From assembly GCA_003171335.1 (NCBI GenBank), contig PMYD01000080.1:1-47292 (forward strand): a DNA stretch of 47,292 nt, given 5' to 3'. The DNA comes from Phycisphaerales bacterium (GTDB lineage Bacteria; Planctomycetota; Phycisphaerae; SM23-33; FEN-1343). Below the pieces are notes generated by a model. It ran no database searches. It was not told the origin of the DNA and saw only the letters and a list, made by a program, of their open reading frames with translations. The position numbers and the translations under genes were made by a program. This document shows positions 10,577-44,483 of this stretch, one piece after another. Each line of letters begins with the position of its first letter. Within the stretch, counting starts at the first letter, position 1.

Positions 10577-13153
10577 TCAAGGTTTGAAGCGTGGATCGTT
10601 GGTGATCGCAATCCGCGCCAGCATCGCGCCCGGCTCGCGCCCTTGAAAGGTGACAGTATGTTCGCCCGCCACCAGCGGGAAGACACGCGGGTCGATAGCC
10701 CGCGGCGTGCGGCCGTCCCGGCCGTTCACCACCGTCCAGCGCCAGTTCTGGCAGCGCGCCAGGTCCTTTTCTTTCTGCCTGGCCGGGTCGGAGTCGTAGT
10801 CGCCCTCTTCGGGCTCCATGGCGTCGAAGACATCCTTGCCCTGGCCGTCGATCATCACGTAGAAGGAGTCCTGCGATTCCGTCGGGCCTTTCACCAGCGC
10901 CCAGATGTAGTAGTCCCCCGCGCTGGGCGCACGGAACCCAAAGCCGATGGAGCCTTTGTCCTTTTCGGGCGAGCAAGCGTGCTTTCGCAGCGATGGCCCG
11001 GCGCCCTCGGTGGCGATCATCATCGGCGGTTTGAGGGCCCCATCCTGAACTTCGTATCGGGCGGTGAAAGGCTGCGTGCGAGCATCGGCGACCACAAACG
11101 AGATGCTGTAATCCTCGCAGATATTGCCGGCCTCATCGCGCGCCTTGATGTACAGGGTGCATGCAGCGCCATCCTTGAGGCCCGACACCTTCGTCGTGTG
11201 GAGAAGCCCGCCGGTGTTCGTGAACGCGTGGTCCATCTTGTCGAACAGCACACCGGCCTTCAAAGCGTAGCGGCAAACGACCGGCTCGTCCGATCGCACG
11301 GAGATGCTCACCTCGGTCGTCCCGGCCTTCTGTGCCTGCCTGGGCGAGCCCTTGGCCAGGAACGGGGCGGTCTTGTGCGGCAGCGGCGGCTGGATGTCTC
11401 GGTAGGCTGCTTCGCCCACAGTATCGGTTGGCCCTGTAAGACCCTGCCCGCCGGCCGCCACATAGCCGCCCGAGGCCCCCGAAGCATCGGGGCTGACCCA
11501 GAAGGCGTAGAGCTTGCCCTGTCTCAGGTGGAAACGGAACCGCACGATCCGCCCTGCCAAGGATGACAGGTCTGCCGCCCCTTTCCAATTCACCGGCTGG
11601 AGCGTCGAGTCGCCGGCTGCCCGCGCGCAGTTGGCGCGGGAGAAGGGGGCGATCACGTTGCCCTGCTCATCGAGAATCTCGGCCGCCAATTCGCCATTCG
11701 CGGCATCGACATTCACGAAGAGCCGGCAGCCCGCAAAGCGAACGGGCCGCGTGGTCAGGCTGCCGCCTTCGCGGCCTCCATCCATGGAGGCAAATCCATC
11801 GCGCCGCAGGAAGGCCACGCCGGTGGCGTTGCCGACCGGGCTTCGCCCGCTGCAATAGAAGTACAGCCGGTCGCCCATGACCAGACAGCCGCCGCCGGCG
11901 GACTGGACGTTGGTGTAGTTCCACCGCTCCGGCCGGCCGTTGGATCGCGGCAGGAACGGCTGGCGGGCCTCGGCCGGACGATGCCAGTGGAAACCATCCC
12001 GGCTGAAGCCGACAAAGATCTCGTTGTGCCACGAGAACGTTTTGACGCTCTCGCCGCCGCGCCAGATTGAAAAGAGCCCCAGCATGAGGCTCTCGTACGG
12101 CGTGGCGTCGAGGTTATACAGTTGCGGAAACGACTCGCCGCCCACATCGTCGCTGCGGGGGTCGAGGTTATCCGCGTGCGCCCACACGGGCAACTCCGTG
12201 CGGCCGGCGGCGCCTTCGGCGATGGAGAGGACATCATCCCACTGAAGCGGCTTTCCCCCGGCTTGCGCGCGCTCCAGGTCGCGCTGATGCCAGATTCCGC
12301 AGGTAGTCGCCGTGTCGGGCCACTGCGCCGCGGCGAGGAAGTCGGCGTTCTCCGAGTACCGCCGGAAGCGCAGCAGCTCCTGGCTGGCAGGCCCCAGATC
12401 GCGGATGCTGAACACCCACACCTTGCGGAACGGGTTGTAGAAAAAGGTCGACCGGTCGCCGAGCTGACCTGAACGGCCAAACTGCGTCCAGTGGATGCCA
12501 TCGGGCGAAGCATAGAGGCGAAGGAACCACTTGTGGCCGCTCACGTCGCATTGGCTCATCTTGAACCGCTGCGATGGATCGGTCGCGTTGGGGTCCAGCC
12601 AGACCAGGCCCGAGTCCCGGCTTTGGGTCAGCAGGACGTTGGTCCCCGCGCCGAGGCGATTCTTGACGAGGTCCAGTGCGGGCTTGTCCCACGTCAGACC
12701 ATCCTTGGAGGTGGCGTAGCAGGTGCCGCTCACATCCCCGGCGGCCGCCCGGCCCACGTACCACATCTTGAAGCTCTGGCCGTTCGGGTCCCACCAGACG
12801 CCATCGCTGAAGGGGATGCCCGAGGTGATGACGGGGTTCTTGTCGTAGTAAACCGGCAGATGCCAGGTGCGCTTCAGCGTGGTCTGCTCGATGAGAAAAT
12901 CATCCACGAAAAGCTGTCGCCCCACATCAATCGGAATCACCGCCGGCGGGCTCACCAGGTACGGCGGCAGCGGCGGCGGCTCGGTGGAAAGCGGGATATC
13001 CCGCGGCGGCCACAGCGCGGGCAGAACAATGCCGTTGTACAGCACCTCGCCCGCCCCTGCGGCGGCGGCGGCCGAAAGCATGCACAGGAAGCCGCTCATG
13101 GCCGCTGTGGCCAGAACGACGACCATCACGCAAGGCGGCAATCCTTCAGGCAT
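10577..13153 (-). CDS. Secreted beta-propeller glycosidase-like protein
   Basis: The 858-residue protein has an N-terminal signal peptide or anchor: a hydrophobic run from residue 9 to about 34 ending in small residues. The next part resembles the five-bladed propeller of GH32/GH43-like proteins common in planctomycetes. It has RQLFVDDFLI, DGVWWDPNGQSFKMWYVGR, CYATSKDGLTWDKP, a second SPDGIHWT and a later FVGFSRDGFHWHRP. Each S/R-x-DG-x-x-W motif marks a blade. The last 300 residues hold beta-rich modules of unknown family; the very end resembles a carbohydrate-binding domain (YYIWALVKGP, then AGEHTVTF). Catalytic acids cannot be named with certainty. It probably cuts or binds polysaccharide outside the cytoplasm. 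AAGGGAAGG lies just before the ATG. Confidence 0.7.
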   Translation of the reverse strand: MPEGLPPCVMVVVLATAAMSGFLCMLSAAAAAGAGEVLYNGIVLPALWPPRDIPLSTEPPPLPPYLVSPPAVIPIDVGRQLFVDDFLIEQTTLKRTWHLPVYYDKNPVITSGIPFSDGVWWDPNGQSFKMWYVGRAAAGDVSGTCYATSKDGLTWDKPALDLVKNRLGAGTNVLLTQSRDSGLVWLDPNATDPSQRFKMSQCDVSGHKWFLRLYASPDGIHWTQFGRSGQLGDRSTFFYNPFRKVWVFSIRDLGPASQELLRFRRYSENADFLAAAQWPDTATTCGIWHQRDLERAQAGGKPLQWDDVLSIAEGAAGRTELPVWAHADNLDPRSDDVGGESFPQLYNLDATPYESLMLGLFSIWRGGESVKTFSWHNEIFVGFSRDGFHWHRPAEARQPFLPRSNGRPERWNYTNVQSAGGGCLVMGDRLYFYCSGRSPVGNATGVAFLRRDGFASMDGGREGGSLTTRPVRFAGCRLFVNVDAANGELAAEILDEQGNVIAPFSRANCARAAGDSTLQPVNWKGAADLSSLAGRIVRFRFHLRQGKLYAFWVSPDASGASGGYVAAGGQGLTGPTDTVGEAAYRDIQPPLPHKTAPFLAKGSPRQAQKAGTTEVSISVRSDEPVVCRYALKAGVLFDKMDHAFTNTGGLLHTTKVSGLKDGAACTLYIKARDEAGNICEDYSISFVVADARTQPFTARYEVQDGALKPPMMIATEGAGPSLRKHACSPEKDKGSIGFGFRAPSAGDYYIWALVKGPTESQDSFYVMIDGQGKDVFDAMEPEEGDYDSDPARQKEKDLARCQNWRWTVVNGRDGRTPRAIDPRVFPLVAGEHTVTFQGREPGAMLARIAITNDPRFKP

Positions 13154-17969: not shown

Positions 17970-20417
17970 CTATCGGCCGCCGGTGTTGTGAACGGCCTCG
18001 GCCTTGGCGTACGCCTCTCGGGCACGGATCAATTTCGCCTTCAGTTCGGCGCTGCCGAACTCCGGGTATAGCGCCTCCGACACGCGCAGGATGTCATCCG
18101 CGGCGGCGGGGTGGTTCTGCTGGTTCAGCGCCTCGGCCAGCAGGAGCGTGGCGGAACACCAGTCGGCCTGGCCAGCCTTGAGGAGTTGGCGGGCCTGGCG
18201 GAAGCTCTCGGCCGCCTTGTCCGGCTGGCAGGAGCAGCAGGGTCTGACCCCGCGCCACCTGGATAGCGGGCGAATGGGGAAACTGTGCGGCCAGATCGTC
18301 GGCGGCCTTGAGGGCCTGCTCAAGCCGGCCGCCCTGGCGCAGCGCCTCGATCCTCAGCAAGGAGTCGGTCCAGCCTGGGCTTGTCGGCCTGACCGGCGGG
18401 ATTCTTCAACAAGGCCTCCGTGACAAGCATGGCCTCGCCCGGCGCTTCTACACGAATCTCCGCCGCGGCCACGCCCCGCCAAATGGCCACCGAATCGTTC
18501 TGCGACAGCGACAGCGAGCGACTCATCGCCAGCGAGCAAAGCTGGAGCGCCTGCTGGCGAATCCGCTGCCTGGCGGCGGCATCGGCCAGTCCATAGCGAT
18601 CCGCCAGCGCCTCGGCCAGGCGCAGCGGCACCCGGGGTGAGCCGGGGCGCTGGGCCGGGGCGCTGGCCGGCGTGGCTGGACATAACTCCGCCGCAGCCTC
18701 GTCGATCAAGCCCAGATCCAGCAACGCCTGCGCCCGCAGATCCGCCGCCTGGGCGGCCCAGACGGAGCTTGACTCCAGCAATTGGTGCTGATCGCGAAGA
18801 AGCAGCAGGGCCGCCTTGGGATCGCCCATGGCGGGCCCGCTCAGGTATTGCGCCTTGGCCAGAACGATCCGACAAGTCAAATCCGGATCGTCTTGCCCCG
18901 CCCCTTGGGCCGCATCCAGGTCTGCCAGCACCTCGTTGGCGGCGGGCGTGCCGGGTTGAGTTGCCGCCGGGCGAGATGTGGAAGGATTTGGACGGCACAT
19001 GGCCCGCCAGTAGAGCAGCGTCGGACTGCCTTCAACCAGCGCCTGCTGCTCCGTCAGAACTGTCAGAATTGTCGCCTCCGAGGCCTCCTGTCGGGCCAGC
19101 GGCACCCACGCCGTCAGGGCATCGCGGCGCACGGGGATGGGCAAGTCAGTCAGAAATGCCTCTGACAAAGCCGCCATCACCCGACGGCGAAGCTCCGGTT
19201 CGGCATTGGCCGCATCGGCCGGCAGCGCCGACATGAGCGCCGCCACTCGCAACTGAATCGCCGCGGCCCGCTCGGCCGCCATCGCCGAACCCGCGTGAAG
19301 CACCAGGTCGCACAGGTCGGCCGCTCGGAGGGGCTGACCGTTCTTCAGGATCAACTGGGCGCAGCGCAAGGCGAGCATCGCCGGCGGCGCATCCCCTGGC
19401 ATCGCCGCGGCCCGGTCGTAAACGGCGCAGGCTTTCATCCGACCGACCTGGGCCAGCAACTGGGCATACGCGAACAGCTCCTGGCGGGTCATGACGGTTT
19501 GGCCCGCGCGTTCATCCAGGTCGCTCAGTGCCTCCAGGCGTTCAAAGGCCGCCGCCGCCTTGATCACGCCCGGCGTCCGCAGCGTTTGGGCGGCCTGGTC
19601 CAGCCGCGCATCTGGCGCATGCAAGTCGAGCTTACGGATCTCGGCCAAGCCAGCGCGGGCCACCAGCCAATCCACCGCGCCGACCCAATGGGGCTGGTTC
19701 GTTATCTCCGGCGAGGCACGCCACAGTCGAGCTTCCCGGGTTGCCGCCGCCGGATCGGTCACCAGGAGCGATTCCAGTTTCTCCATCATGGCCAGTCGGC
19801 GAAGGTCGCCGATTCCCACCGCGGCCGTCGGGGGGAGCTTCAACACCGGCTCCAGCGCCGCCAGGGCGGCCGCCGGCTCGCCCAAAAGCCGCTGGCTCCG
19901 GGCCTCCAGAACGTAGCCCATCATCGCCAGCGGCTGCGTTCGATACTCCACGCGCAACGCGCGAAAGGCGACAATCGACTCATGCAAGTATTGTGAGGCC
20001 TCCTTGGGCACTTCCGACGACCCGGTCAGCGCGATTGCCGCCGCCTGAAAAAGCTGTCCGCGCGCCAGAGCCACTCGGCAGGCGTCTTCGTTTTCACGCC
20101 CGCTGCCATTGCCGTGCGGCCGCGTAGCCGGCGCTGCGCCCGTCGGCTGGGGGCTCCTATCTGGATGCACGGCCGCCAGTGCATCGAGGCCCTGCCCAAG
20201 CACCCGTGCCACTTCCTCAGTCTTGGGCGGCGGGACGTACTGGAGCAGCGTCAGACGATCGACACATTGCTCCAGGGATGGGGCCGCTCGGCTGGGACGC
20301 TGCCGGGGTCGGCGCCGCTTCCTGCCCGCCGAGTGCACGGCCAGGCGCCTGGGCCGCGGCGAGGCAGGCCAGCGTGGTCAAGGCGATCGCCCATCGGGCC
20401 GGCGGGTTCATTGCCAT
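17970..20417 (-). pseudogene. Secreted TPR-like protein with three apparent frameshifts
   Basis: Read across three frame changes this is one protein of about 815 residues. The N-terminus is a signal peptide from 20417 (MAMNPPARWAIALTTLACLA, cleaved near AAQAPGRA). The frame changes near 20285 into a long helical body with TPR-like helix pairs (for example AAALAALEPVLKLPP and LLAQVGRMKACAVYDRAAAM). It changes again near 18370 and near 18230 before the last TPRs (KAAESFRQARQLLKAGQADW, then YAKAEAVHNTGGR). Each change equals one extra base, which suits either assembly error in short homopolymers or gene decay. The start overlaps the HEAT gene stop in ATGGCAATGA, so the two are coupled. A role in the cell envelope is likely from the signal peptide and the ExbB-like neighbour. 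Confidence 0.7.
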
Positions 20418-23876: not shown

Positions 23877-24827
23877 TTACTGTTGCAGCGCCATCAATCG
23901 CTTGATGCGATCGCGGATGGGCGGGTGCGTGTCGAAGATGCTGCCCTCGGTGCCTTCCTGATCTTCCTGCGCCTTGAGCACAGGATGGACAATGTACAGC
24001 GGCGCGGTGGCCCGATTGGCCACCTGGAGCACCTCGTCATCGCCGGCCAGTTTCGCCAGCGCGGAGGCCAGGCCTTCCGGGTTTCGCGTCAACTGCACGC
24101 TGCCGGCGTCGGCCAGATATTCCCGCTGCCGCGAAATGGCCATCTGAATGATCTTGGCCAGCACCGGGGCCAGGATCGCCAGCACCAGCGCCAGCACCAG
24201 GAGAATCAGCCGCGCGCCGCCACCGCCGCCGCGGTCCCGGTCGCTTCGGCGCCCGCGCGAGCCCGCCCCCCACCACATGCTGCGCAGGAATACATCGCAC
24301 AGCATCACCAGCGTGCCGACCATCACCGCCACGAGCGTGGCGAAAAGGATATCGTAGTGGCGGATGTGGCTCAGCTCGTGCCCCAGGACGCCCTGCAGCT
24401 CATCGCGCGTCAGCCGCTGCCGCAGTCCCCGCGTAATGGCCACGAATGCGTGCGCCGGATTGCGGCCGGTGGCGAAGGCGTTCATGGCCGGCTCGTCGAT
24501 CAGGTAGATCCGCGGCATCGGCGAGCCGGCGGCGATCGAGAGCTCCTCCACCACGTTGAACAACTGCGGATCATCGCTTTTCTGGATCTCATGCGCCTGC
24601 GACATGCTCAGCAGCACCGAGCTGCCGCCGAAGTACCCGCCCAGCATGAGAAAGAACGCCAGCACCGCCGCCCCCGCGGCCACCGCGATGGCGAAAGTCC
24701 AATTGCCGACCCAGACGTAGCCGATCAGCAGGCCCAGGCCGATGAAGAACATCGCAAATAGCGCGATCAACAACCAGGTGTTGCGCTTGTTCCGGGCAAT
24801 CAGAGTTTGGAAGGTCTCGAAAGCCAT
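23877..24827 (-). CDS. htpX: HtpX-like M48 membrane metalloprotease
   Basis: This is a 316-residue zinc metalloprotease of family M48B. Two N-terminal membrane helices span residues 17-40 and 43-62. The zinc site is HELSH at residues 150-154 (GVLGHELSHIRHYD), and the third ligand is in REYLADAGSVQLTRNPEGLA. Two further membrane helices lie between them. The end FDTHPPIRDRIKRL is typical of HtpX. The active site faces the cytoplasm. The family degrades damaged membrane proteins. It is the last gene of the DUF350-Tim44/HINT-LemA-HtpX operon, a few nt after lemA. An insertion of Arg/Gly-rich residues (SRGRRSDRDRGGGGG) after the third helix is longer than in E. coli. Confidence 0.93.
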   Translation of the reverse strand: MAFETFQTLIARNKRNTWLLIALFAMFFIGLGLLIGYVWVGNWTFAIAVAAGAAVLAFFLMLGGYFGGSSVLLSMSQAHEIQKSDDPQLFNVVEELSIAAGSPMPRIYLIDEPAMNAFATGRNPAHAFVAITRGLRQRLTRDELQGVLGHELSHIRHYDILFATLVAVMVGTLVMLCDVFLRSMWWGAGSRGRRSDRDRGGGGGARLILLVLALVLAILAPVLAKIIQMAISRQREYLADAGSVQLTRNPEGLASALAKLAGDDEVLQVANRATAPLYIVHPVLKAQEDQEGTEGSIFDTHPPIRDRIKRLMALQQ

Positions 24828-24833
24828 CGGCTG

Positions 24834-25388
24834 CTAAAACTTCACCTTGGGGGCCTCGCCCTCCGCCGGCGCCGTCAGCTCGAAATACTCCTGCTTCTCG
24901 AAGCCGAACATGTTGGCCACCAGCACATTGGGAAACGTCTGCCGGGCGGCATTGTAGATGGCCGCCGAGTCGTTGTAGTACTGGCGGGCGAAGGAGATCT
25001 TGTTCTCCGTGCTGGTCAGCTCCTCCTGCAACTGGGCAAAGTTCTCGTTGGCCTTGAGGTTGGGATACGCCTCGGCCACCGCGAAAAGCTGCCTTAGCGC
25101 GCCGGTCAGCACATTTTCCGCCTGGGCCTGCTGAGCCACGCCCTTGGCCGCCACGGCCGTGTTCCGTGCGGCGATGACATTCTCCAGCGTGGTCTTCTCG
25201 TGGGCGGCGTAGCCTTTGACCGTCTCCACCAGATTGGGAATCAGGTCGTACCGCCTCTTCAGTTGCACGTTGATCTGGCTCCAGGCCTCCTGGCAGCCAA
25301 TCCGCCTTCGCACCAGACCGTTGTAGATTCCGATGAGAATCGCCACAACGACCAGGATGACGCCCAGAACGATGATGGCAGGAACCAT
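24834..25388 (-). CDS. lemA: LemA family protein
   Basis: This 184-residue protein has an N-terminal membrane anchor (residues 3-24) and the LemA signature: YNGLVRRRIGCQEAWSQINV, then QLKRRYDLIPNLVETVKGYA and a long helical body ending FEKQEYFELTAPAE. LemA proteins are membrane-anchored four-helix-bundle proteins of poorly known function that are often found next to HtpX or Tim44-like genes. The ATG at 25388 starts directly on the anchor. The neighbours on each side belong to the same operon, which suggests envelope-protein quality control or stress. Confidence 0.93.
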   Translation of the reverse strand: MVPAIIVLGVILVVVAILIGIYNGLVRRRIGCQEAWSQINVQLKRRYDLIPNLVETVKGYAAHEKTTLENVIAARNTAVAAKGVAQQAQAENVLTGALRQLFAVAEAYPNLKANENFAQLQEELTSTENKISFARQYYNDSAAIYNAARQTFPNVLVANMFGFEKQEYFELTAPAEGEAPKVKF

Positions 25389-25440
25389 GCGGCACCGTGT
25401 CCTTCCCTGTTTCCGGCTGTTTCTTTCCTCAGTTCGTTAA

Positions 25441-27693
25441 CTAGACCGCGCGTGTCTGCTTGTAGAACCACTGCATCTGGCCGCGGTTGCTGCCCTCATC
25501 CACATTCTCCGCGGCCATTTGCCGCTGGCCCTCAGCCGGCGGCAGCACTTCCTTGAGCTTCCACTGGTTCTCCTGGCGGCCGAACGACCAGTATTCGACG
25601 AAGGGCTTAACGTCCTCATCCCGCATGACAACGCTGCCCGCCTTGGAGATGGTCTGCTGCGCGTGGGCGCTGAAGCGGACCGTGAACTCATCCTTGCTGT
25701 TGTCGCTGTAGTTCCGCACCAGCACCAGTTCCGCCTTGCGGATGCACAAATTGCGGAACTCGAAGCTCATTGCCCCCGCGCGCTGACTCTGGATCTGCTG
25801 GCGCAGGCTTTCGGCCACCTCGGGGAATAACTCCTCATCGCTCACGGCGGCCGCATCGCCGCATTCGCGGGCGTGGTAGACGGACATGAAAATTGAGCGC
25901 GCCCGCTCCAGCATCGCCTGGCGGTCCCAGAGTTTGTCGGTCTGCACCAGGAAGTTGAGCAGGCGATCGATCTTCGTGGCCTTTAGCTCCATGCTCGAGT
26001 CCAGCCAGGGCCCCGCCGGGCCGGCCGTTCCCGCCGCCGCGCCGTAGATCTGATCCACGGTATGGTCGGTCATGGACTCGAAGAAGTTCTCCTCCTTGAG
26101 AACGTCGCTTTCGCGCGTCTGCTCAATCTCCAGCAGCAGCCACTGGCCCTGGTGGAACTGGAAGGTCCAGAATTCCTGGAACTTCTGGGCGGTGCGGTCG
26201 CCGCGAATGAATTCCCGGGTGCGATCATCGACGTAGTAGTCCCGCGCGTGGGCGGTGATCAACGCGGTAAACTGGCGATGCCCGGGATCGTTGGTGTAGC
26301 GCACGTTGACGATATCCACGCGCTCGACCGCCACGTTCTCCAGGACGTTGATCTCGTGCTGGTGGATCATGTTGGAGATCTGCCGGCAGTGGTCCACGTA
26401 GAGGTCGTCGATCAGCAGGGATTTCATGGGGTCGTATTGCCGCGCCTGCCAGCATTCCTGGAGTTTCAGAAACGTGGCCGTGGTTTTCTGCGTCAGCGCG
26501 TCGATGCTGAATGCCGTATCCTGCTTGGCGATGAACTCCACCAGCGTGCGCGTCTTGGCGGCCTTGGCCAAAACCATGGCGGGCGAATAGAGATAATCCA
26601 GGTTCTCATCATCGCCGTCCTGGTCGCCGCCTGAACGTGAGCCAAACCAGCGGAAGCCCAGATAAACAGCCACGATCCCGACGAGGATCAGGAAGAATAT
26701 GGGCGAATCCTCGGAACCGGACGATCCGCCGCCGTAGCTGTGGAACCCGCCCCCGCCGCCGAATCCCCCGCCGCCAAAACCGCCGCCGCCGCCCTTGTTG
26801 TGGACGGCGATGCCCTCGGCGAAGAAGGTGTGCGGCTGGTCGGTCTGAAGGTTATAGACGGTCACCGACTTATGAATGCGAGTGATGCGCGTGATGGCCT
26901 GGGGGCGAAGCCCCGAGCCGTCATAAGCATAGATGCAGTCGCCGACCTTCAGCGATTCGATCGCCTTAAACGTGCCGTTGCCGACGTAAAAGGGATGCTG
27001 CGGCGTGACATTCAGGACCGTCTGCTCCGTGACCACAACCAGGTATTCATCCACCTGGCGCGTCAGGATGTTTTGCACGGCCGCCGGAACAATCTCCCCC
27101 GCCTCCGTAAACGCCAGCAGCCGATCGCCCACCTGAACCTCGCGGATGGCCATCTGGCCGCCATCGGCCCGCAGGATGGGCGTGTCGCCCAGGAAACAGC
27201 CGCCGCCCTTGTTGTGCACGGCGATGCCATCGGCGAAGAAGGTGTGCGGCTCATCCGTCTGAAGGTTATAGACGGTGGCCGGCCGGCAAATGCGGGTGAT
27301 GCTCGTGATCGCCTGGGGTGACAATCCCGAGCCGTCATACCCAAACACGCAATCGCCCACCTGCAGCGATTCGATCGTCTTGAACGTGCCGTTGCCCACG
27401 TAAAACGGATGCTGCGGCGTGACGTTCAGGGTGGCCTCACCCGTGGCCACCACCAGGTACTCATCCACCTGCCGCACCAGCACGCACTGCACGGCCGCCG
27501 GCACGATTTGCCCATCGCTCGTGAAGGCCGCAAGCTGATCGCCGATGTGAACATCGCGGATCGCCACCTGCCGGCCGTCGGCAAGCAGGATGGGCGTATC
27601 CCCCAGGAAACAGCCGCCCCCGCCTCGCGCCAAAGCGGTCGAGGCGCAGGCCAAGGCGACAAGCAGCGACAGGATGATCGTACGGGTGTTCAT
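25441..27693 (-). CDS. Tim44-like membrane protein with two tandem HINT (intein-like) domains
   Basis: The 750-residue protein has a signal peptide (residues 1-22) and two HINT domains of 134 residues each, Cys28-Asn161 and Cys166-Asn299. A Gly-rich linker, a membrane helix at about 331-350 and two Tim44-like domains (about 375-525 and 590-735) follow. Each HINT copy starts with CFLGDTPIL, has the block B TPQHPFYVGNG and ends in GIAVHN followed by Lys. The end His-Asn allows cleavage, but Lys at +1 in place of Cys/Ser/Thr argues against normal splicing, as in bacterial intein-like domains. Tim44-like domains bind membranes or partner proteins. The gene lies between the DUF350-like gene and lemA. 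The tandem copy is the unusual part; a single HINT in this position is the more familiar form. Confidence 0.85.
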   Translation of the reverse strand: MNTRTIILSLLVALACASTALARGGGGCFLGDTPILLADGRQVAIRDVHIGDQLAAFTSDGQIVPAAVQCVLVRQVDEYLVVATGEATLNVTPQHPFYVGNGTFKTIESLQVGDCVFGYDGSGLSPQAITSITRICRPATVYNLQTDEPHTFFADGIAVHNKGGGCFLGDTPILRADGGQMAIREVQVGDRLLAFTEAGEIVPAAVQNILTRQVDEYLVVVTEQTVLNVTPQHPFYVGNGTFKAIESLKVGDCIYAYDGSGLRPQAITRITRIHKSVTVYNLQTDQPHTFFAEGIAVHNKGGGGGFGGGGFGGGGGFHSYGGGSSGSEDSPIFFLILVGIVAVYLGFRWFGSRSGGDQDGDDENLDYLYSPAMVLAKAAKTRTLVEFIAKQDTAFSIDALTQKTTATFLKLQECWQARQYDPMKSLLIDDLYVDHCRQISNMIHQHEINVLENVAVERVDIVNVRYTNDPGHRQFTALITAHARDYYVDDRTREFIRGDRTAQKFQEFWTFQFHQGQWLLLEIEQTRESDVLKEENFFESMTDHTVDQIYGAAAGTAGPAGPWLDSSMELKATKIDRLLNFLVQTDKLWDRQAMLERARSIFMSVYHARECGDAAAVSDEELFPEVAESLRQQIQSQRAGAMSFEFRNLCIRKAELVLVRNYSDNSKDEFTVRFSAHAQQTISKAGSVVMRDEDVKPFVEYWSFGRQENQWKLKEVLPPAEGQRQMAAENVDEGSNRGQMQWFYKQTRAV
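26797..27612 (-). repeat. Tandem duplication encoding two HINT domains
   Basis: Two 402-bp copies lie at 27211-27612 and 26797-27198, separated by 12 bp that encode the KGGG linker. The offset is 414 bp, exactly 138 codons. Long stretches are almost identical at the nucleotide level, for example around the TPQHPFYVGNG codons and the VYNLQTD codons. Other parts have diverged, mostly within 20-60 bp blocks. This looks like an in-frame duplication that is not recent. Confidence 0.85.
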
Positions 27694-27705
27694 GGTCTAA
27701 CCGCG

Positions 27706-27975
27706 CTAGCCGTGCAATGCGGCAATCACGCCGGCGGCGACGGCCGCGGCCACCACGATGCTGACGCCGATGACGCCGGCCGCCACCACCCGCCCGAAAT
27801 ACTCGGCCACGGCGGTGTTGCCGCGGGCGATCTCCTTCTCTTCATCCAGATTGGGCGTCAGGCGGTCAATAATGTGCGGCAGAATGAACGAGGCCACCAG
27901 GACCATCACGATGCCGACCACCCCGCCGACGATGGCGAAAATGACGGCCCAGCCGATTCCCTGAAGCACGGACAT
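27706..27975 (-). CDS. DUF350-like small membrane protein
   Basis: This 89-residue protein has two hydrophobic segments (residues about 6-32 and 63-86) around the polar DEEKEIARGNTAVAEYFG loop, which matches DUF350 membrane proteins. The ATG at 27975 has AGGAG about 7 nt upstream. The open frame extends to 28035, but without a ribosome site. It is the first gene of the four-gene operon with the HINT/Tim44 protein, LemA and HtpX. The role is not known. Confidence 0.75.
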   Translation of the reverse strand: MSVLQGIGWAVIFAIVGGVVGIVMVLVASFILPHIIDRLTPNLDEEKEIARGNTAVAEYFGRVVAAGVIGVSIVVAAAVAAGVIAALHG

Positions 27976-28347: not shown

Positions 28348-31300
28348 ATGCGCAAGGCAGGCCAGGTGGAGGCATCGATTGGCAAGTTCTTGGCCCCCGC
28401 GCGGCCACTCGCCCCAGGTCTTGAGGGCAGCGTCGGCGCATGGCGGTGGGCGAATTGGGCCCCGATGGAGTTCCTGGAGCTGCGCACGCTGCTCAGCGCG
28501 GCCTTCGACATGACCGGCCTGACGGCCCTGCGCGCTGACCCCACGTACTCCGCCATCAACGGTCAGGGCATCGCTGTCGCTATTCTCGACACCGGCATCT
28601 ACGGCCAGCACCCCGACCTGGTCAAGAACGTGGAGGTGTGGTTCGACGCCGTCAAGTACGGCAACCAGTGGGCGACCAATCCCGGCGACACGAATATCGC
28701 CGATTCCTTCGACCCCGACGGCCACGGCAGCCATGTGGCCGGCACGGCTGCCTCCAGCAACCCGGCCATCGGCGTGGCCACGGGAGCCAAGATCGTCGAT
28801 GTGCGAGTCCTGCCGGCCAGCAACGAGACGCAGCCCAGTTGGGACCCGCTGCTGACGGGCCTGGAATGGGTGCTGCAGAACGACGCCAAGTACAATATCC
28901 GCGTCGTCAACATGTCGCTGGGCGACCCGTACGTCAACGACAACACGCTGCCCGCCTCGGATGACTACAGCACGGTCATTCAAAGCCTGGAAAACGCCGG
29001 GGTCACCGTCGTCTCGGCCGCCGGCAACGGATACACCGGCTATCAGGCGCTGGGGGAATCCAGCCCGGCCATCTGGTCCACGCTGGCCGTGGGCAACGTG
29101 TGGCAGAACAACGATCCCGGCGGGCAGCTTCCGGTGGAGGGCATCGACCCGTTGGGCAACTGGGTCTCCGTGGAGACCAGCCCGCAGGCCGACAACCTGC
29201 AGGCGGCCAGCCAGCGCAGCACGCTGCCCAACATGGTGTGCGCACCTGGCAGCGAGATTTACAGCACGTGGAACGGCGCCAACGGGCTCCTGTACAACAC
29301 CATCATGGGCACCAGCCAGGCCTCGCCGCTGGTGACGGGCATGGTGGCGTTGATGCAGGATGCCGCCTTCACCTTCGGCGGCCGGTATCTCACACCGACC
29401 GAGGTGCAGACCATCGCCCGCAATTCCGCCGATCACATCGTCGATGCCCCCAACCCCAACACCGAGCGATTCCCCGTGGCCACAAACTCCTTGGGCCAAT
29501 TGGTTCAGACCGGGCCGATCCAGGATTCGGTCGAGTCGGGCCTGACCTACGATCGCGTGAACATCTACCGCGCCGTGCAGGCGGTCCGCGCCCTGGTGAC
29601 GCAAAGCTCCACGACGGGCGGAGCAAACCTGGATACGAACAACACCATCGCCTCGAGCACCAGCCTGCCGGCCCTCAACGCCACCACGCCGGATGTGGCC
29701 CAGGGCAACATCGGCACGGATGGCCAGGTGCAGGTGGGCGCAAACGATGTGGACCTGTACAAGCTGGTCCTCTCCTCCCCCGGCCAGATCACCATCGCGC
29801 TTTTACCACTGACCGGCGGGCAGGCGTTCAGCCCGGTGGTCCGCCTGTTCGACAGCACCGGCACGCAACTGGCCGAGCAGACCGGCAGCCCCAGCGCGTA
29901 CCCCACGTTGACAACGTCCTCGACGCTGGCGGCCGGCACGTACTATTTCGGCATCTCCAGTCAGGCCAACACGCTGTACAACATCGTCAACGGCAGCGAC
30001 ATCGCCGCCGGCGGCTCGACCGGCGATTACCAGGCGACCGTCAGCCTTTCCAACCCCGACCCCAACGGCGTGGCCCAGGGCGCCGTCCAGGTGGACATGA
30101 CCCAGGCCGATGCGTTTGACCCCGACCTGAACGTGCCGGCCGAATACTTCCCCGGCACGATCGGCTCGGATCCCAACCTGGTGAACCCCAGCCTGCCACG
30201 CATCCAGATTGGCCCGACGGATGTGGACATGTTCAAGATGGTCGCCCCGGATACGGGCGTTCTGACGGTGAACATCCACTCCCAGGATGTGTACGGCACT
30301 GCCGGCATCGACAGCTTCGTGCTGATGTACGACCAGAACCTCACGCTGGTGGGCTACAACGACGACAGGAGCCGGTTCAACACGGATAGTTTCCTCCAGG
30401 TCAACGTGACCGAAGGCCAAGTTTACTACGTCGCCGTCACGACCTACGGCACCGCCGTCACCGCCCAGGGCACTCTCGGAATTGACCCCTCCACCCCCTA
30501 CGGCCGCCACTCCACCACCGGGCAAACGGGCAGCTATGACCTGTACCTGTCCTTCGATAACGGCGACAAGAACGGCACCGTCTTCAGCGCCACGCCCTTC
30601 CAGGGCAACGCCACCAATAACGTGCTGTCGGGCGTCATCGGCTCGGACTTTGGCACGCCGCTCTTGAGCTACTCTGCCAACGGCGGCAACAAGGATGTGG
30701 ATTTCTATTCCTATTCGCCCACGCAGAGCGGCCTGCTGGAAATCGCCGCCACCAGCCCGGACCACTCCATGATGTCGGCGGTCACGCTGTGGCAGTACGA
30801 CTCCACCGCCAACACTGTAAGCAAGATCGCCGACACCTCCGGCGCGACGGCGGCACTGGATTACCCCGTCACCTCGGGCCAGACCTATTACGTCTCGGTC
30901 ACCGGCCAGGGCAACCAGGGCTTCAACTGGTATGCCGTCGCTTCAGGCTCGGGCGGCCAGACGGGCAACTACCAGCTCCGCATCGTGGTGGGCCCATCCT
31001 CCGACGCCACCGCCCTGAACAACAACTCCATTCAGAACGGCACGCCCACGCCCATCGGCCTCAATCAGCCGATCCCGGGCGATATCGGCATGGACGGCCC
31101 GCTGGTGGTCGGGCCAACGGATGTCGACCTGTATTCCTTCACGCCCGCCCAGGACAGCACGTACTCCATCGGGGCCGATGCCTCGCGCACCGATAGCGCT
31201 GACACGTTCCTGCGGCTGTTCGACTCGACCGGCCATGAGCTGGCCTACAACGACAACCTGAGCGCCAGTTCGGCCTCCAGCCTGATCGTCCAGAACCTGA

Positions 31301-31986
31301 CCGGCGGGCAGACGTACTACATCGGCGTCGACGGCGCCGGCGCCGGCGCCCGCAACTACAACCCCTTGACCGGGGCCGGCGCCGCCGCCGGCAGCACCGG
31401 CACGTACACGCTGACGGTCAGCCTGGCGGCCGATTTCAATGGCGATGGGCAGGTCAACGGCCAGGATTTCCTCACCTGGCAAACCCACTACCCCACCAGC
31501 GGCGGGGCCACGCGGTCCATGGGCGATGCCAATGGCGATGGCCTGGTCAACGGCCAGGATTTTCTCATCTGGCAGACAAGCTACCACCCCCTCGTCCAGG
31601 GGTCTTCCGTAAGCCAACTGACTGCCCCGAGCGCCCCGACGGCCGCCCCGCCGCCCGTGGCGACAGCCGCGCTACCCGGTGCACCCGGCGCCAAGCCCAT
31701 CGATATTCTGGCGGCTTCACCCAATGTCATCAGTCCGGATTGGCTAACTCCTCTCGGCAATGCCAATATCCGGCATTACCTTGGCTTGGCCGCTTCGGTG
31801 ATATCCCCGTTGAAAGGCAAGCTCGCCGCACCGGCTGATCGGGAGCAGGCCCAAATCGCCGAGCCGCGACCGCCGGCGGTCTTAGCCGGCCAGGCTGCCC
31901 CGTTGCCGGATGCCGGCCGGCCTGATGGTCTTGCCACCGATGAACTCGCCGATGCCCTGGCCGGGCCGGGTGTCTTGGTATTTTGA
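28348..31986 (+). CDS. Secreted subtilisin-like (S8) peptidase with PPC and dockerin domains
   Basis: This is a 1212-residue surface or secreted protease. The N-terminus carries LELRTLLSA at residues 43-51, a variant of the planctomycete LEPRxLLSA motif. The catalytic triad is Asp81 (AILDTGI), His126 (GHGSHVAGT) and Ser323 (MGTSQASP). Four prepeptidase C-terminal (PPC)-like modules follow, each starting with a VDxY/F motif near residues 467, 625, 783 and 925. At about 1029-1080 are two dockerin-type calcium repeats (DFNGDGQVNGQDFLTWQTHY and DANGDGLVNGQDFLIWQTSY). A Pro/Ala-rich tail ends the protein. The ATG has AGGAGG with 6 nt spacing. The dockerin suggests attachment to a cohesin-like partner, which is not seen in the window. 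It may act with the S53 enzyme in extracellular protein breakdown. Confidence 0.92.
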   Translation: MRKAGQVEASIGKFLAPARPLAPGLEGSVGAWRWANWAPMEFLELRTLLSAAFDMTGLTALRADPTYSAINGQGIAVAILDTGIYGQHPDLVKNVEVWFDAVKYGNQWATNPGDTNIADSFDPDGHGSHVAGTAASSNPAIGVATGAKIVDVRVLPASNETQPSWDPLLTGLEWVLQNDAKYNIRVVNMSLGDPYVNDNTLPASDDYSTVIQSLENAGVTVVSAAGNGYTGYQALGESSPAIWSTLAVGNVWQNNDPGGQLPVEGIDPLGNWVSVETSPQADNLQAASQRSTLPNMVCAPGSEIYSTWNGANGLLYNTIMGTSQASPLVTGMVALMQDAAFTFGGRYLTPTEVQTIARNSADHIVDAPNPNTERFPVATNSLGQLVQTGPIQDSVESGLTYDRVNIYRAVQAVRALVTQSSTTGGANLDTNNTIASSTSLPALNATTPDVAQGNIGTDGQVQVGANDVDLYKLVLSSPGQITIALLPLTGGQAFSPVVRLFDSTGTQLAEQTGSPSAYPTLTTSSTLAAGTYYFGISSQANTLYNIVNGSDIAAGGSTGDYQATVSLSNPDPNGVAQGAVQVDMTQADAFDPDLNVPAEYFPGTIGSDPNLVNPSLPRIQIGPTDVDMFKMVAPDTGVLTVNIHSQDVYGTAGIDSFVLMYDQNLTLVGYNDDRSRFNTDSFLQVNVTEGQVYYVAVTTYGTAVTAQGTLGIDPSTPYGRHSTTGQTGSYDLYLSFDNGDKNGTVFSATPFQGNATNNVLSGVIGSDFGTPLLSYSANGGNKDVDFYSYSPTQSGLLEIAATSPDHSMMSAVTLWQYDSTANTVSKIADTSGATAALDYPVTSGQTYYVSVTGQGNQGFNWYAVASGSGGQTGNYQLRIVVGPSSDATALNNNSIQNGTPTPIGLNQPIPGDIGMDGPLVVGPTDVDLYSFTPAQDSTYSIGADASRTDSADTFLRLFDSTGHELAYNDNLSASSASSLIVQNLTGGQTYYIGVDGAGAGARNYNPLTGAGAAAGSTGTYTLTVSLAADFNGDGQVNGQDFLTWQTHYPTSGGATRSMGDANGDGLVNGQDFLIWQTSYHPLVQGSSVSQLTAPSAPTAAPPPVATAALPGAPGAKPIDILAASPNVISPDWLTPLGNANIRHYLGLAASVISPLKGKLAAPADREQAQIAEPRPPAVLAGQAAPLPDAGRPDGLATDELADALAGPGVLVF

Positions 31987-40036: not shown

Positions 40037-43000
40037 ATGAAGGCGAAAGCCTCAGAGCACATAGATGGATCCGGGGCAAAGTCCGTGGGTTCCGATCGAA
40101 AGGCCACCGGCGGGCTGAAGGTCGAACGCCTCTTTTCCACCGCCGGCGTTCACCCGTTTGACCAGATCGAATGGGAGAAGCGCTCGGCGGCCATCAAGGA
40201 TAGCGACGGCCGCATCATCTTCCGCCAGGATGATGCCGAAGTGCCGGCCGCCTGGAGCCAGTTGGCCACCAACGTGGTGGTGAGCAAGTATTTCTACGGC
40301 GCCCAGGGCGGCAGCGAGCGCGAAAGCAGCGTCCGCCAGCTCATCGACCGCGTCACCCGCACCATCGCCGACTGGGTCGCCGCCGACGGCGTCTTGGCCT
40401 CGCCGGCCGATGCCCAGGTGTTCTACGACGAGCTGACCTGGCTGTGCGTCAACCAGTACGGCTCGTTCAATTCGCCGGCGTGGTTCAACGTGGGGCTCTT
40501 CCAGGCGCATGGCGTGGAGGGCTCGCCGGGCAGCTTCCACTGGGATAAAGCCGCCAACGCCGCGGCCCGCACGCAGAAGGGCTACGAGTACCCGCAGGCC
40601 TCGGCCTGCTTCATCCAGAGCGTTCGCGACGACATGGAGAGCATCATGGACCTGGCCAAGGCCGAGGCCATGCTCTTCAAGTTCGGCAGCGGCACGGGCA
40701 CGGATCTTTCCACGCTGCGCTCCAGCCGCGAGAAGCTCGCCGGCGGCGGCACGCCCTCGGGACCCTTGAGCTTCATGCGCGTGTACGACCAGGTGGCCGC
40801 CGTGGTCAAGAGCGGCGGCAAGACCCGCCGCGCCGCCAAGATGCAGTCGCTGCGCTGCGACCACCCGGATATCAAGGAATTCATCGAGGCCAAGAGCCGC
40901 GAGGAGAAGAAGGCCTGGGCGCTCATCGAGCAGGGCTACGACGGCAACTACAACGGCGAGGCCTACGCCAGCATCCTGTTCCAGAACGCCAATCTCTCCA
41001 TCCGCGTGACCGACGAATTCATGCAGGCCGCCCAGGCGGACCAGCTCTGGCAGACGCGCGAGATCACCACCGGCAAGCCCTCCACGCAGTACCGCGCCAA
41101 GGAGCTGCTGGACCTGATCGCCGAAGGCACGCGGATCTGCGGCGACCCCGGGGTGCAGTACCACAGCACGATCAACCGCTGGCACACCTGCCCCGCCGCC
41201 GGCACCATCAACGCCTCCAACCCGTGCAGCGAGTACATGTTCCTGGATGATTCGGCCTGCAACCTGGCCAGCCTGAACCTGATGAAGTTCCGCCAGGCCG
41301 ATGGCGGCTTCAACGTCGCGGCCTTCCGCCACGCCGTGCGGCTGTTTATTATCGCCCAGGAAACGCTGGTCGATCACGCCAGCTACCCCACCGAGCCCAT
41401 CTGCCGCAACAGCCACACGTACCGGCCGCTGGGGCTGGGCTACGCCAACCTGGGCTCGCTGCTCATGAGCCTGGGCCTGCCCTACGACAGCAACGCCGGC
41501 CGCGCCCTGGCGGCGGCCATCACGGCCATCCTGACCGGCGCCGCCTACGCCACCAGCGCCGAGCTGGCCAGCCGGCTGTCGCCCTTTGACGGCTGCACCG
41601 CCAACCGCGACTCGATGCTGCACGTCATGGACATGCACCGCGAGGCGGTCGAGCACATCGATGCCGCCTGCCCGCCGGCCATGCTGGCCGCGGCCCGCCA
41701 GGCGTGGGAAGAGGCCCTTGCCGCCGGCAGCCAATTGGGCTACCGCAACGCCCAGGTCAGCGTGCTGGCCCCCACGGGCACCATCGGCTTCATGATGGAC
41801 TGCGACACGACGGGCATCGAGCCGGATATCGCCCTGGTGAAGTACAAGCTGCTGGCCGGCGGCGGCATGTTCAAGATCGTCAACCGCACCGTGGCCCAGG
41901 CGCTGCGGCAGCTCGGGTACGACGAGGCGGCCATCAAGAACGTCCTGGCCTACGTCGAGGCGCACGACATGATCGAAGGCGCGCCGCTGCTGCGCGAGGA
42001 GCACCTGCCGGTGTTCGACTGCGCCTTTAAACCGGCCGCCGGGCAGCGCAGCATCAACTACATGGGCCACGTGCGCATGATGGCGGCCGTGCAGCCGTTC
42101 ATCTCCGGGGCGATCTCCAAGACCGTGAACATGCCCAAGGAGTCCACCGCCGCCGATATCCGCGATGTGTACGTGCAGGGCTGGAAGCTGGGCCTCAAGG
42201 CCATCGCCATCTACCGCGATGGCTCGAAGCGCTCCCAGCCCGTCAGTACGAAGAAGGACGACAAGTCCTCCGCGGCGCAGCAGGAGCCTGCCACCGCCCA
42301 GGCCCAGGCGCTGCTGGAAGAGGCCATGCGCCGGCCGCACCGCCGGCACCTGCCCGATACGCGGCAATCCCTCACCCATAAATTCGACATCGCCGGCCAC
42401 GAGGGCTACATCACCGTGGGCCTGTTCGACGATGGCGCGCCCGGCGAGGTCTTCATCACGATGGCCAAAGAAGGCTCGACGGTCGGCGGCATGATGGATG
42501 CCTTCGCCACGGCCATCAGCCTGTGCCTGCAGTACGGCGTGCCGCTGGAGTCGCTGGTGAAGAAGTTCAGCCACCAGCGCTTCGAGCCCAACGGCATGAC
42601 GACCAACCGCGATATCCCCTTCGCCAAGAGCATCGTGGACTACATTTTCCGCTGGTTGGGCCTGCGGTTCCTGGATGGCTACCGCAAGAGCAACCTGCCG
42701 CATCGACCCGCCGCGGGCGGGGCGAACCCATCGTCTGCAGCACCCGAGAGCGTCACGGAGGACGGAACCTCGGACCCTAGCCGCGCCGGCGAGGCCTCCG
42801 ACACGGAGGTCCATAGGCCCGTCGGCGATATTTTGAGCCCGCCCGATGCCGGCGGCAACGGCGAGGCCGCCAAGGCCGCGCCCCTGGCACGGGCCGCGCG
42901 CATCCGCAAAACATCGACCCTGGCGCGGGCCGGGCGCATCGACCAGCAGTTCACGCATTTCCAGGAAGATGCCCCGCCCTGCGATTACTGCGGATCCATC

Positions 43001-43063
43001 ACGGTCCGCAATGGCAACTGCTACAAGTGCTATACGTGCGGCAATTCCCTCGGGTGCAGCTAG
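40037..43063 (+). CDS. nrdJ: B12-dependent (class II) ribonucleotide reductase
   Basis: This is a 1008-residue enzyme that reduces ribonucleotides to deoxyribonucleotides with adenosylcobalamin, without oxygen. Visible family features are FNSPAWFNVG, FGSGTGTDLSTLRSSRE, the active-site Asn-x-Cys-x-Glu in NPCSEYMFLDDSACNLASLN, and the PTGTIGF loop in the C-terminal half. A linker of over 100 Ala/Pro-rich residues follows. The protein ends with the zinc ribbon CDYCGS and CYKCYTCGN that carries the redox cysteines. The start is ATG 40037 with GGAG seven nt upstream, not the TTG at 39974. The length matches the long TIGR02504-type form. It is expected to supply DNA precursors under low oxygen. Confidence 0.96.
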   Translation: MKAKASEHIDGSGAKSVGSDRKATGGLKVERLFSTAGVHPFDQIEWEKRSAAIKDSDGRIIFRQDDAEVPAAWSQLATNVVVSKYFYGAQGGSERESSVRQLIDRVTRTIADWVAADGVLASPADAQVFYDELTWLCVNQYGSFNSPAWFNVGLFQAHGVEGSPGSFHWDKAANAAARTQKGYEYPQASACFIQSVRDDMESIMDLAKAEAMLFKFGSGTGTDLSTLRSSREKLAGGGTPSGPLSFMRVYDQVAAVVKSGGKTRRAAKMQSLRCDHPDIKEFIEAKSREEKKAWALIEQGYDGNYNGEAYASILFQNANLSIRVTDEFMQAAQADQLWQTREITTGKPSTQYRAKELLDLIAEGTRICGDPGVQYHSTINRWHTCPAAGTINASNPCSEYMFLDDSACNLASLNLMKFRQADGGFNVAAFRHAVRLFIIAQETLVDHASYPTEPICRNSHTYRPLGLGYANLGSLLMSLGLPYDSNAGRALAAAITAILTGAAYATSAELASRLSPFDGCTANRDSMLHVMDMHREAVEHIDAACPPAMLAAARQAWEEALAAGSQLGYRNAQVSVLAPTGTIGFMMDCDTTGIEPDIALVKYKLLAGGGMFKIVNRTVAQALRQLGYDEAAIKNVLAYVEAHDMIEGAPLLREEHLPVFDCAFKPAAGQRSINYMGHVRMMAAVQPFISGAISKTVNMPKESTAADIRDVYVQGWKLGLKAIAIYRDGSKRSQPVSTKKDDKSSAAQQEPATAQAQALLEEAMRRPHRRHLPDTRQSLTHKFDIAGHEGYITVGLFDDGAPGEVFITMAKEGSTVGGMMDAFATAISLCLQYGVPLESLVKKFSHQRFEPNGMTTNRDIPFAKSIVDYIFRWLGLRFLDGYRKSNLPHRPAAGGANPSSAAPESVTEDGTSDPSRAGEASDTEVHRPVGDILSPPDAGGNGEAAKAAPLARAARIRKTSTLARAGRIDQQFTHFQEDAPPCDYCGSITVRNGNCYKCYTCGNSLGCS

Positions 43064-43479
43064 ATTAACATCAGGGCGCCCGAGAGCATATCCCCCGCCG
43101 GCGGGTGACCGGCCCGGCGGACGAGAGCACCGAACGATTGAGATGTCATATTCAGGCGTCGGCGAGACAAGGATGGCAAGGAAGAAGACCGAAGGCATAT
43201 TCCTAATATGCTGAGGTTTTTCTGACGCCGCCAGCCGAAGTCGCAGCCAGCCTGAATGTGACAGATCAAGAGTGAGTTGCTCTAGATCGTGTGTCGAGGC
43301 AATCGATAGTCGTAACGGGTGGTTCATCTCTGCGGAAAGAGTGCAGCCGTAAGGTCGTCTGTGCCGAAAGATAGACATCTTGAGCGGCCGAGCCATCACT
43401 AGTGCTCGGCCGGCAAGAACAGTGCTTGTGCTGCGCGACCGTAAGTGCTTAATTTTTTTGCGTTTATGACTTTTTTCCG
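43064..43479. other. Intergenic region with hairpin and T-run
   Basis: No coding frame is convincing. A 9-bp perfect stem (CGGCCGAGC, loop of 10, GCTCGGCCG) lies at 43385-43412. A run of seven T follows at about 43453-43459, which could end a transcript coming from nrdJ or a separate RNA. The last 30 bp are AT-rich and would suit the upstream element of the next promoter. Confidence 0.4.
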
Positions 43480-43507
43480 TTGACATCAAAAGAGCCGTCC
43501 CTAGAAT
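43480..43507 (+). promoter_or_regulatory. Sigma-70-like promoter
   Basis: TTGACA at 43480-43485 is a perfect -35. TAGAAT at 43502-43507 matches the -10 consensus at five of six positions, with 16 nt between. An AT-rich stretch with T-runs lies upstream. Transcription would start near 43514 and run into a three-hairpin RNA. Confidence 0.7.
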
Positions 43508-43513
43508 CGCGAT

Positions 43514-43622
43514 TGTCCGCTGCACCCCGCGGATAGCAGGTCTCCCTCCACCTGCATCTGGGTTGCGGCAACTGAGCCCGATGCCCCAGGTCTCCCTCCA
43601 CCTGGGCATCGGGACTTTTTTT
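43514..43622 (+). ncRNA. Candidate small RNA with three C-rich hairpin loops
   Basis: Downstream of the promoter, about 109 nt fold into three consecutive hairpins. Hairpin 1 is TCCGC/GCGGA with loop TGCACCCC (43516-43533). Hairpin 2 is GCAGGT/ACCTGC with loop CTCCCTCC (43536-43555). Hairpin 3 is a 14-bp stem with one bulged C and the same loop CTCCCTCC (43577-43613), followed by seven T, and is a strong rho-independent terminator. Every loop is eight nt and C-rich, and the last two match the anti-Shine-Dalgarno sequence. CAGGTCTCCCTCCACCTG is identical in hairpins 2 and 3. No start codon with a ribosome site occurs in it. I infer a trans-acting regulator that pairs with ribosome-binding sites, similar in idea to alphaproteobacterial cuckoo RNAs. 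It could also be a leader attenuator of leuD. Confidence 0.6.
43577..43622 (+). terminator. Rho-independent terminator
   Basis: The stem CCCGATGCC(C)CAGGT pairs with ACCTGGGCATCGGG around an eight-nt loop. AC and then seven T follow at 43616-43622. It is the strongest terminator structure in the window and ends the small RNA candidate. Confidence 0.85.
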
Positions 43623-43801
43623 GGCATTGCTTGGTGGCACAGGCTTCCGGCTTGGTGGCACAGGCTTTTAGCCTGTGTCCCCGCTCGTCCTTCTGATACC
43701 GAATCGCAAATCCAGAATCGCCAACGCTCGCTCGCTGGCAACCGACCCAGGCCTTCAATACAATGTCTGGCGCTACGGGCGGAAACAGGAAAGGCGGAGA
43801 A

Positions 43802-44365
43802 ATGGAACCGCGGATTACCGGCAAAGTTTTTGTCCTGGGCGACAACATCGATACCGACCAGATCATTCCGGCCGAGTATCTCAGCTACAACCCGGCTCTG
43901 CCCGAGGAGCGGCGGCAGTTCGGCCGCCTGGCCCTTTCTGGCGTGCCGCTGGCACAATCGGGCCTGCCCAAGGGCAACTGCCGCTTCGTCCAGGAAGGCA
44001 AGTTCAAGACGGATTACGCCGTCATCCTGGGCGGCAAGAACTTCGGCTGCGGCAGCTCGCGCGAGCATGCCCCGCTGGCCATCGCCGAGGCGGGCGTGAA
44101 GGTGGTCGTGGCCGAGTTTTACGCCCGCATCTTCTACCGCAACAGCATCAACGGCGGCTACCTCGTGCCGCTGGAGACGCCCAGCCGGCTCGTCGAGCAG
44201 TTTTCCACCGGCGATGAGGTGGAGGTGGACCTGGCGGCTCCGGCCATCACCAACCGCACCACCGGCAAGAGCTTCGCCCTGAGCCCGCTGGGCCAGGCCG
44301 GCCCCATCATCCTGGCCGGCGGCGTTTTCGAATACGCCCGCAAGACGGGCCTCTTGGCCCGGTAA
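43802..44365 (+). CDS. leuD: 3-isopropylmalate dehydratase small subunit
   Basis: This 187-residue aconitase-swivel-domain protein has GDNIDTDQIIPAEYL at residues 14-28 and the hallmark GGKNFGCGSSREHAPLAI, then EFYARIFYRNSINGGYLVP. It is the small subunit of isopropylmalate isomerase in leucine synthesis and needs a LeuC partner, which is not in the window. Homoaconitase or citraconate-type relatives share the same fold. An ATG at 43763 is open, but ATG at 43802 follows GGCGGAG and starts two residues before the family's usual start. It is about 180 nt downstream of the small RNA terminator. A bidirectional terminator follows. Confidence 0.9.
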   Translation: MEPRITGKVFVLGDNIDTDQIIPAEYLSYNPALPEERRQFGRLALSGVPLAQSGLPKGNCRFVQEGKFKTDYAVILGGKNFGCGSSREHAPLAIAEAGVKVVVAEFYARIFYRNSINGGYLVPLETPSRLVEQFSTGDEVEVDLAAPAITNRTTGKSFALSPLGQAGPIILAGGVFEYARKTGLLAR

Positions 44366-44415
44366 GCCCGGGGCGGGCGCGGCGACTGGCGGTAGCTTCA
44401 CCAGTTCAAAAAGAA

Positions 44416-44454
44416 GAACCGCGCTTCGGCTGGACCGAGGCGCGGTTCGTTTTT
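44416..44454. terminator. Bidirectional rho-independent terminator
   Basis: GAACCGCGCTTCGG pairs with CCGAGGCGCGGTTC, with one mismatch, around a five-nt loop. Five T follow on the plus strand, and an A-rich stretch precedes it that would be a T-run on the minus strand. It separates leuD from the convergent membrane protein gene. Confidence 0.8.
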
Positions 44455-44483
44455 CACATTCACAACGCATCTTCGCTCATCCA

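Follow-up and report, generated by a model that had tools for sequence, protein, structure and literature searches.

What might two back-to-back intein-like domains be doing in a membrane protein, five residues from the start of its exported N-terminal part? The question is raised by a gene at 25441-27693 on the minus strand of the window, by which we mean the whole 47,292-nucleotide stretch of Phycisphaerales DNA analysed here. The original prediction read it as a Tim44-like membrane protein with two HINT domains whose cleavage would release the HINT modules and free the membrane-anchored part. Our analysis indicates that the HINT array is a real, conserved feature, and that it is a novel form of bacterial intein-like (BIL) domains and not a separate category.

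Architecture of the protein and its locus

The open reading frame encodes 750 amino acids, to which both Pfam and NCBIfam profiles apply, and a protein search finds one copy in the window's own genome. All coordinates below lie on the minus strand unless marked otherwise. Hydropathy predicts a Sec signal peptide at residues 1-22 (27628-27693), ending ..ASTALA before RGGGG; its cleavage site was placed by analogy with the junction between A/G and RAGGG that is conserved in 20/20 HINT-free homologues. Comparison with homologues delimits the RGGGG flank, or N-extein (residues 23-27; 27613-27627). HINT domain 1 follows, from C28 to N161 with T92, H95, H160 and N161 (27211-27612), then a KGGG linker (residues 162-165; 27199-27210) and HINT domain 2, from C166 to N299 with T230, H233, H298 and N299 (26797-27198). 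Each domain is 134 residues long, belongs to the lineage called B below and is directly followed by Lys. The domain boundaries, the spacer and the +1 Lys given in the original prediction are thus correct on the translation, the profiles and the structure model.

Downstream of the array lie a Gly-rich flank (KGGGGGFGGGGF.., residues 300-328; 26710-26796) that is disordered in the model, and a transmembrane helix at residues ~331-351 (26641-26703; structure model and hydropathy). The identification as a Tim44-like membrane protein stands on the Pfam Tim44 match and the one helix, but there are two Tim44 domains where one had been described, at residues 388-525 (26119-26532; Pfam, with a fold matching human Tim44, 2cw9) and ~569-714 (25552-25989; profile and model). 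The signal peptide and the single helix suggest a topology with the HINTs outside and Tim44 inside.

Among the profiles, PT-HINT (PF07591; 1.6e-24, 87.1 bits against a cut-off of 27.7) and Tim44 (PF04280; 5.2e-24, 85.5 bits against 29.6) score far above their thresholds, and Pfam Hint and Intein_splicing as well as TIGR01443 and TIGR01445 also exceed theirs. The protein falls below the NCBIfam TimA/adaptor cut-off (NF033779; 56.5 bits versus 80), as family members do for NF033778/NF033779. AlphaFold2, given the family alignment as input, builds two complete HINT folds (mean pLDDT 90.3); its model of the membrane part (pLDDT 85) has the transmembrane helix followed by two Tim44-like domains, for which human Tim44 is the best solved match.

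The gene is part of an apparent four-gene operon (23877-27975) with gaps of 12, 52 and 6 bp. A small DUF350 membrane protein (27706-27975; Pfam) lies 12 bp upstream; DUF350 denotes a domain of unknown function. A LemA family protein (24834-25388; Pfam) lies 52 bp downstream, and an HtpX-like M48 peptidase (23877-24827; Pfam/NCBIfam) is the last gene. Among the best 80 loci of a genome-collection scan, DUF350 is directly upstream in about 69, with 48-72% identity to the window's DUF350, and LemA is near the HINT-Tim44 gene in about 20. In the window's class, 20 loci without HINTs have neither gene within the short flanks examined, and clustering of neighbouring ORFs revealed nothing else clearly conserved across the family. 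HtpX was rejected as a conserved partner, a close homologue adjoining the gene only in the window and a single weak, distant match occurring elsewhere (L082). On the plus strand, divergent from the operon, 28348-31986 encodes a subtilase of 1212 aa that carries PPC repeats and a type I dockerin domain. Three candidate long ORFs on the minus strand have no Pfam match at 1e-5 (40052-44470, 10577-13153 and 18320-20338; 1472, 858 and 672 aa).

An ordered array in a widespread family

The window protein is one member of a wider tandem-HINT Tim44 family, whose members carry one to four HINTs. Within the window's class, where HINT-bearing proteins are patchily distributed, three matches have three HINTs (G026, G055, G231), one has two (G021), and in two others contig ends interrupt the array (G014, G056). 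Among 392 genomes sampled across the phylum, searched at E 1e-20, the family protein was found only in the window's own genome. The collection scan took two Tim44 motifs as query and kept the best 80 loci, the majority of which have HINTs; its counts do not measure prevalence. Among the sources of these 80 loci are Planctomycetota, Verrucomicrobiota, Lentisphaerota, Kiritimatiellota, Desulfobacterota, Nitrospirota, Myxococcota, Elusimicrobiota and Riflebacteria, as well as three cultured Legionella species (L. massiliensis, L. saoudiensis and L. rowbothamii). The 47 Tim44 parts placed in a tree carry 13 different phylum labels, although the bin label of an individual entry may be in error, and Tim44 is the only Pfam match downstream of the HINTs in all 47. 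In that tree a contig binned as Anaerolineales (Chloroflexota; L056) nests within a Syntrophales clade, through either transfer or mis-binning. A plasmid search returned matches only in other proteins, none spanning most of the query.

We extracted 152 complete HINT domains from the family by a rule that allowed for the loss of end residues. All 152 have Cys1, the block-B His and the terminal His-Asn, and 150/152 have the block-B Thr. Between lineages, domain identity is only about 30%, and few non-catalytic positions exceed 95% conservation in each lineage. Since the active-site residues are invariant in these homologous domains, the window's array is not a product of chance. The original prediction had named poor conservation of the key residues as the finding that would count against it; the homologues instead uphold the proposed competence for autoprocessing at Cys28, Asn161, Cys166 and Asn299. 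The residue after the domain is Lys in 145 of 146 cases and Met in one, and the next is always Gly (146/146). These positions draw on both Lys codons and on every Gly codon, so the constraint acts on the protein and not on the DNA. Other, single-HINT proteins of the window's class have Lys at +1 in roughly one third of cases, and it is the commonest +1 residue in this background too. The Met belongs to a single-HINT Elusimicrobial member (L100:5761-7317).

In a FastTree phylogeny the 152 domains fall into three groups, A (46 domains, support 0.95), B (62, weakly supported at 0.37) and C (44, 0.91). Arrays are of type AB (21), ABC (21), ABCC (2) and ABB (2), with a few B or incomplete ones and 14 single-C arrays, mostly in Elusimicrobia. 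The array is thus an ancient family trait whose order is almost always A-B(-C), which the original prediction, otherwise partly supported, had missed. AB and ABC arrays interleave on the host (Tim44) tree, from which it follows that C was gained or lost more than once; recombination within the Gly linkers is the probable route. In Legionella (L071, L072, L073, L099), arrays are AB or ABC, and gain or loss of C is visible within one genus.

The window alone has a BB array, which means that A disappeared or was overwritten and that B was duplicated. The two B copies share 76% identity in protein and 79.9% in DNA, and their differences fall mostly at third codon positions (22/16/43 at first, second and third); with dN 0.16, dS 0.50 and dN/dS of about 0.32 (NG86), the substitution pattern indicates that both have been under purifying selection since the duplication. 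The earlier suggestion that the duplication could allow recombination agrees with a recent B-B duplication here and with AB, ABC, ABB and ABCC arrays in homologues.

The flanks are as regular as the domains. Exactly RGGGG precedes the first HINT in 54/54 readable homologues outside Elusimicrobia, the A-B linker is exactly KG (46/46), and the B-C linker is K followed by three to seven Gly, with one KGGS. HINT-free Tim44 proteins of the same class have a predicted mature chain that starts RAGGG after A/G (20/20), so the short N-extein is part of the host protein, conserved with or without the array. An Elusimicrobial-type relative that keeps the DUF350 neighbour and has no HINT (L115) reads AFARAGGSGGGFSGGGG. 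The array thus interrupts an N-terminal Arg-Gly-rich segment that is kept whole in relatives. Mean pairwise identity is 43% for A, 53% for B, 43% for C, 57% for Tim44 and 32% for the Gly-rich segment plus transmembrane helix. Between A, B, C and Tim44, distances show correlations of 0.61-0.70, which argues that the array travels with its host protein.

Proposed self-excision and its alternatives

With every active site intact, the array very probably undergoes some form of autoprocessing. Canonical intein splicing is excluded because the +1 residue is Lys, and without Cys, Ser or Thr at this position the canonical branched intermediate cannot form. We lean, modestly, towards a tandem array of type-A BIL domains, placed five residues into the exported N-terminus of what would be a Tim44-like protein of the inner membrane, that would excise itself, most likely with ligation. 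Each HINT would form a thioester at the Gly-Cys1 junction and would cut its own C-terminus by Asn cyclisation between His-Asn and Lys; the freed Lys amine would most likely attack the upstream thioester. This would remove the array and join the exteins into RGGGG-KGGG-KGGGGGF.., so that the Arg-Gly-rich N-terminus encoded as such in HINT-free relatives would be re-created, with cleavage products as side products of ligation. Such a route is reported for type-A BILs lacking a +1 nucleophile, in which the freed C-terminal amine attacks the thioester (PMC4031507). Ligation is favoured because the short RGGGG does not vary and agrees with how HINT-free relatives begin; this invariance suggests that the N-terminal piece is kept. 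It could also have another cause, if signal peptidase and the N-terminal HINT junction, and not a function in the mature protein, require this sequence. The conservation of lineage B, nearly as high as that of Tim44 (53% versus 57%), is beyond the needs of self-excision alone and speaks against this reading as a whole. That ligation is the main outcome of processing we regard as evenly balanced.

The original reading considered cleavage only, in which thioester hydrolysis and Asn cyclisation would release free HINT modules, leave a mature KGGGGGF..-transmembrane-Tim44 protein and discard RGGGG. The invariant cleavage residues agree with it, as do the non-nucleophilic +1 residue and the mostly cleaved products that BIL domains, including those without a +1 nucleophile, yield in vitro (PMC7664689; PMC4031507), but type-A BILs are also reported to splice. 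A discarded RGGGG should drift, yet outside Elusimicrobia it does not, and it resembles the RAGGG of HINT-free relatives; we consider cleavage alone unlikely, though worth keeping in view. The thioester might instead pass RGGGG on to the side chain of a Lys, at +1 or on a partner, in an ATP-free isopeptide bond, much as Tetrahymena BIL2 does with a ubiquitin-like protein. BIL2 of Tetrahymena BUBL1, which is reported to form isopeptide bonds with the epsilon amine of Lys (PMC8616854), is among the top solved relatives of the window's HINTs by sequence and the first by fold, and the near-universal +1 Lys stands well above its share in other HINTs of the same class. The array would then be an ATP-independent acyl-transfer device that attaches RGGGG tails at the cell envelope by isopeptide bonds, and would be the bacterial equivalent of BUBL conjugation; the number of domains would set the number of transfer steps. 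We find this improbable, as the N-extein is just five residues without a ubiquitin-like fold, no partner is known, Lys is already the commonest +1 residue among background HINTs, and the sole exception has Met.

Very improbable, in our judgement, are degenerate mini-inteins that maintain themselves as parasitic insertions, tolerated through self-excision and of no gain to the host. The patchy distribution within the window's class and the coming and going of C copies between relatives, such as AB versus ABC in Legionella, would suit such elements, but these domains have no homing endonuclease and a +1 Lys, keep a fixed A-B-C order at always the same site, are co-inherited with the host and, in the case of B, are nearly as conserved as Tim44. 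That the HINTs are retained as structural or binding domains without processing is barely credible: B is highly conserved across phyla, but the catalytic residues are invariant in all 152 domains while few other positions exceed 95% in any lineage. Self-excision with ligation is the preferred reading.

Relation to known HINT systems

BIL domains are usually described as scattered in variable, non-conserved proteins, with unclear benefit. The HINT-Tim44 family has an ordered, anciently inherited BIL array in one conserved membrane protein, with active-site residues always intact, and so offers a clear natural setting in which to ask what purpose BIL chemistry serves. Because cultured Legionella carry the gene, processing can be sought in the native protein. 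Abutting HINTs with KG linkers would also make a natural tool for multi-step splicing or ligation. In the literature covered, which included few subscription papers, we found no description of Tim44 with an intein or of tandem HINT/BIL domains.

Several known identities were rejected. A canonical class 1 intein is at odds with a +1 Lys in place of Cys, Ser or Thr, with domains of this length that contain no homing endonuclease, and with the position of the array in a Gly-rich exported segment instead of a conserved motif in an essential enzyme. A defence system was also dismissed, PADLOC giving only weak homing-endonuclease-like (HINT) and CARF matches. The domains resemble the PT-HINTs of polymorphic toxins in scoring above the profile cut-off, and many PT-HINTs also end in HN-K; but a pretoxin HINT would need a C-terminal toxin module, and here a transmembrane helix and two Tim44 domains follow instead. 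Among the proteins examined, PT-HINTs of the same class from outside the family all occurred singly. The rest of the protein resembles bacterial TimA/Tim44-like proteins in its signal peptide, RAGGG-type Gly-rich start, transmembrane helix and Tim44 domain, and differs from the HINT-free ones found here in the array, the second Tim44 domain and, judged by the short flanks of HINT-free loci of the class, the DUF350 neighbour.

Compared by fold and by pairwise matches, the window's HINTs are best read as type-A BIL domains: they have the HINT fold, the N-terminal Cys and the C-terminal His-Asn of that type, in which no Cys, Ser or Thr is needed at +1. Foldseek placed BIL2, inteins and 2lwy at the top for the HINT pair, and VIA-align gave Z scores of about 20-22 against solved BIL domains and inteins, with hedgehog and mini-inteins close behind the BIL structures. 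The Clostridium thermocellum BIL (2lwy; Z 20.7) shares the fold, Cys1, the block-B His, the terminal His-Asn, the lack of a +1 nucleophile and a length of about 130-135 residues. BILs have been described in variable regions of non-conserved proteins (PMC7765530), unlike the abutting arrays of up to four domains seen here, whose order is set and whose place in a conserved protein is constant. The closest solved fold is BIL2 of Tetrahymena BUBL1 (6y75, 6tmm; Z 22.0), which lies between ubiquitin-like domains (PMC8616854). Both are HINT units, self-processing in BUBL1, within a multi-domain polypeptide, with Lys as a possible acceptor. In our family, however, KG or KGGG alone separates the domains, the N-extein is five residues long, and the array sits in a bacterial membrane protein of the Tim44-like type.
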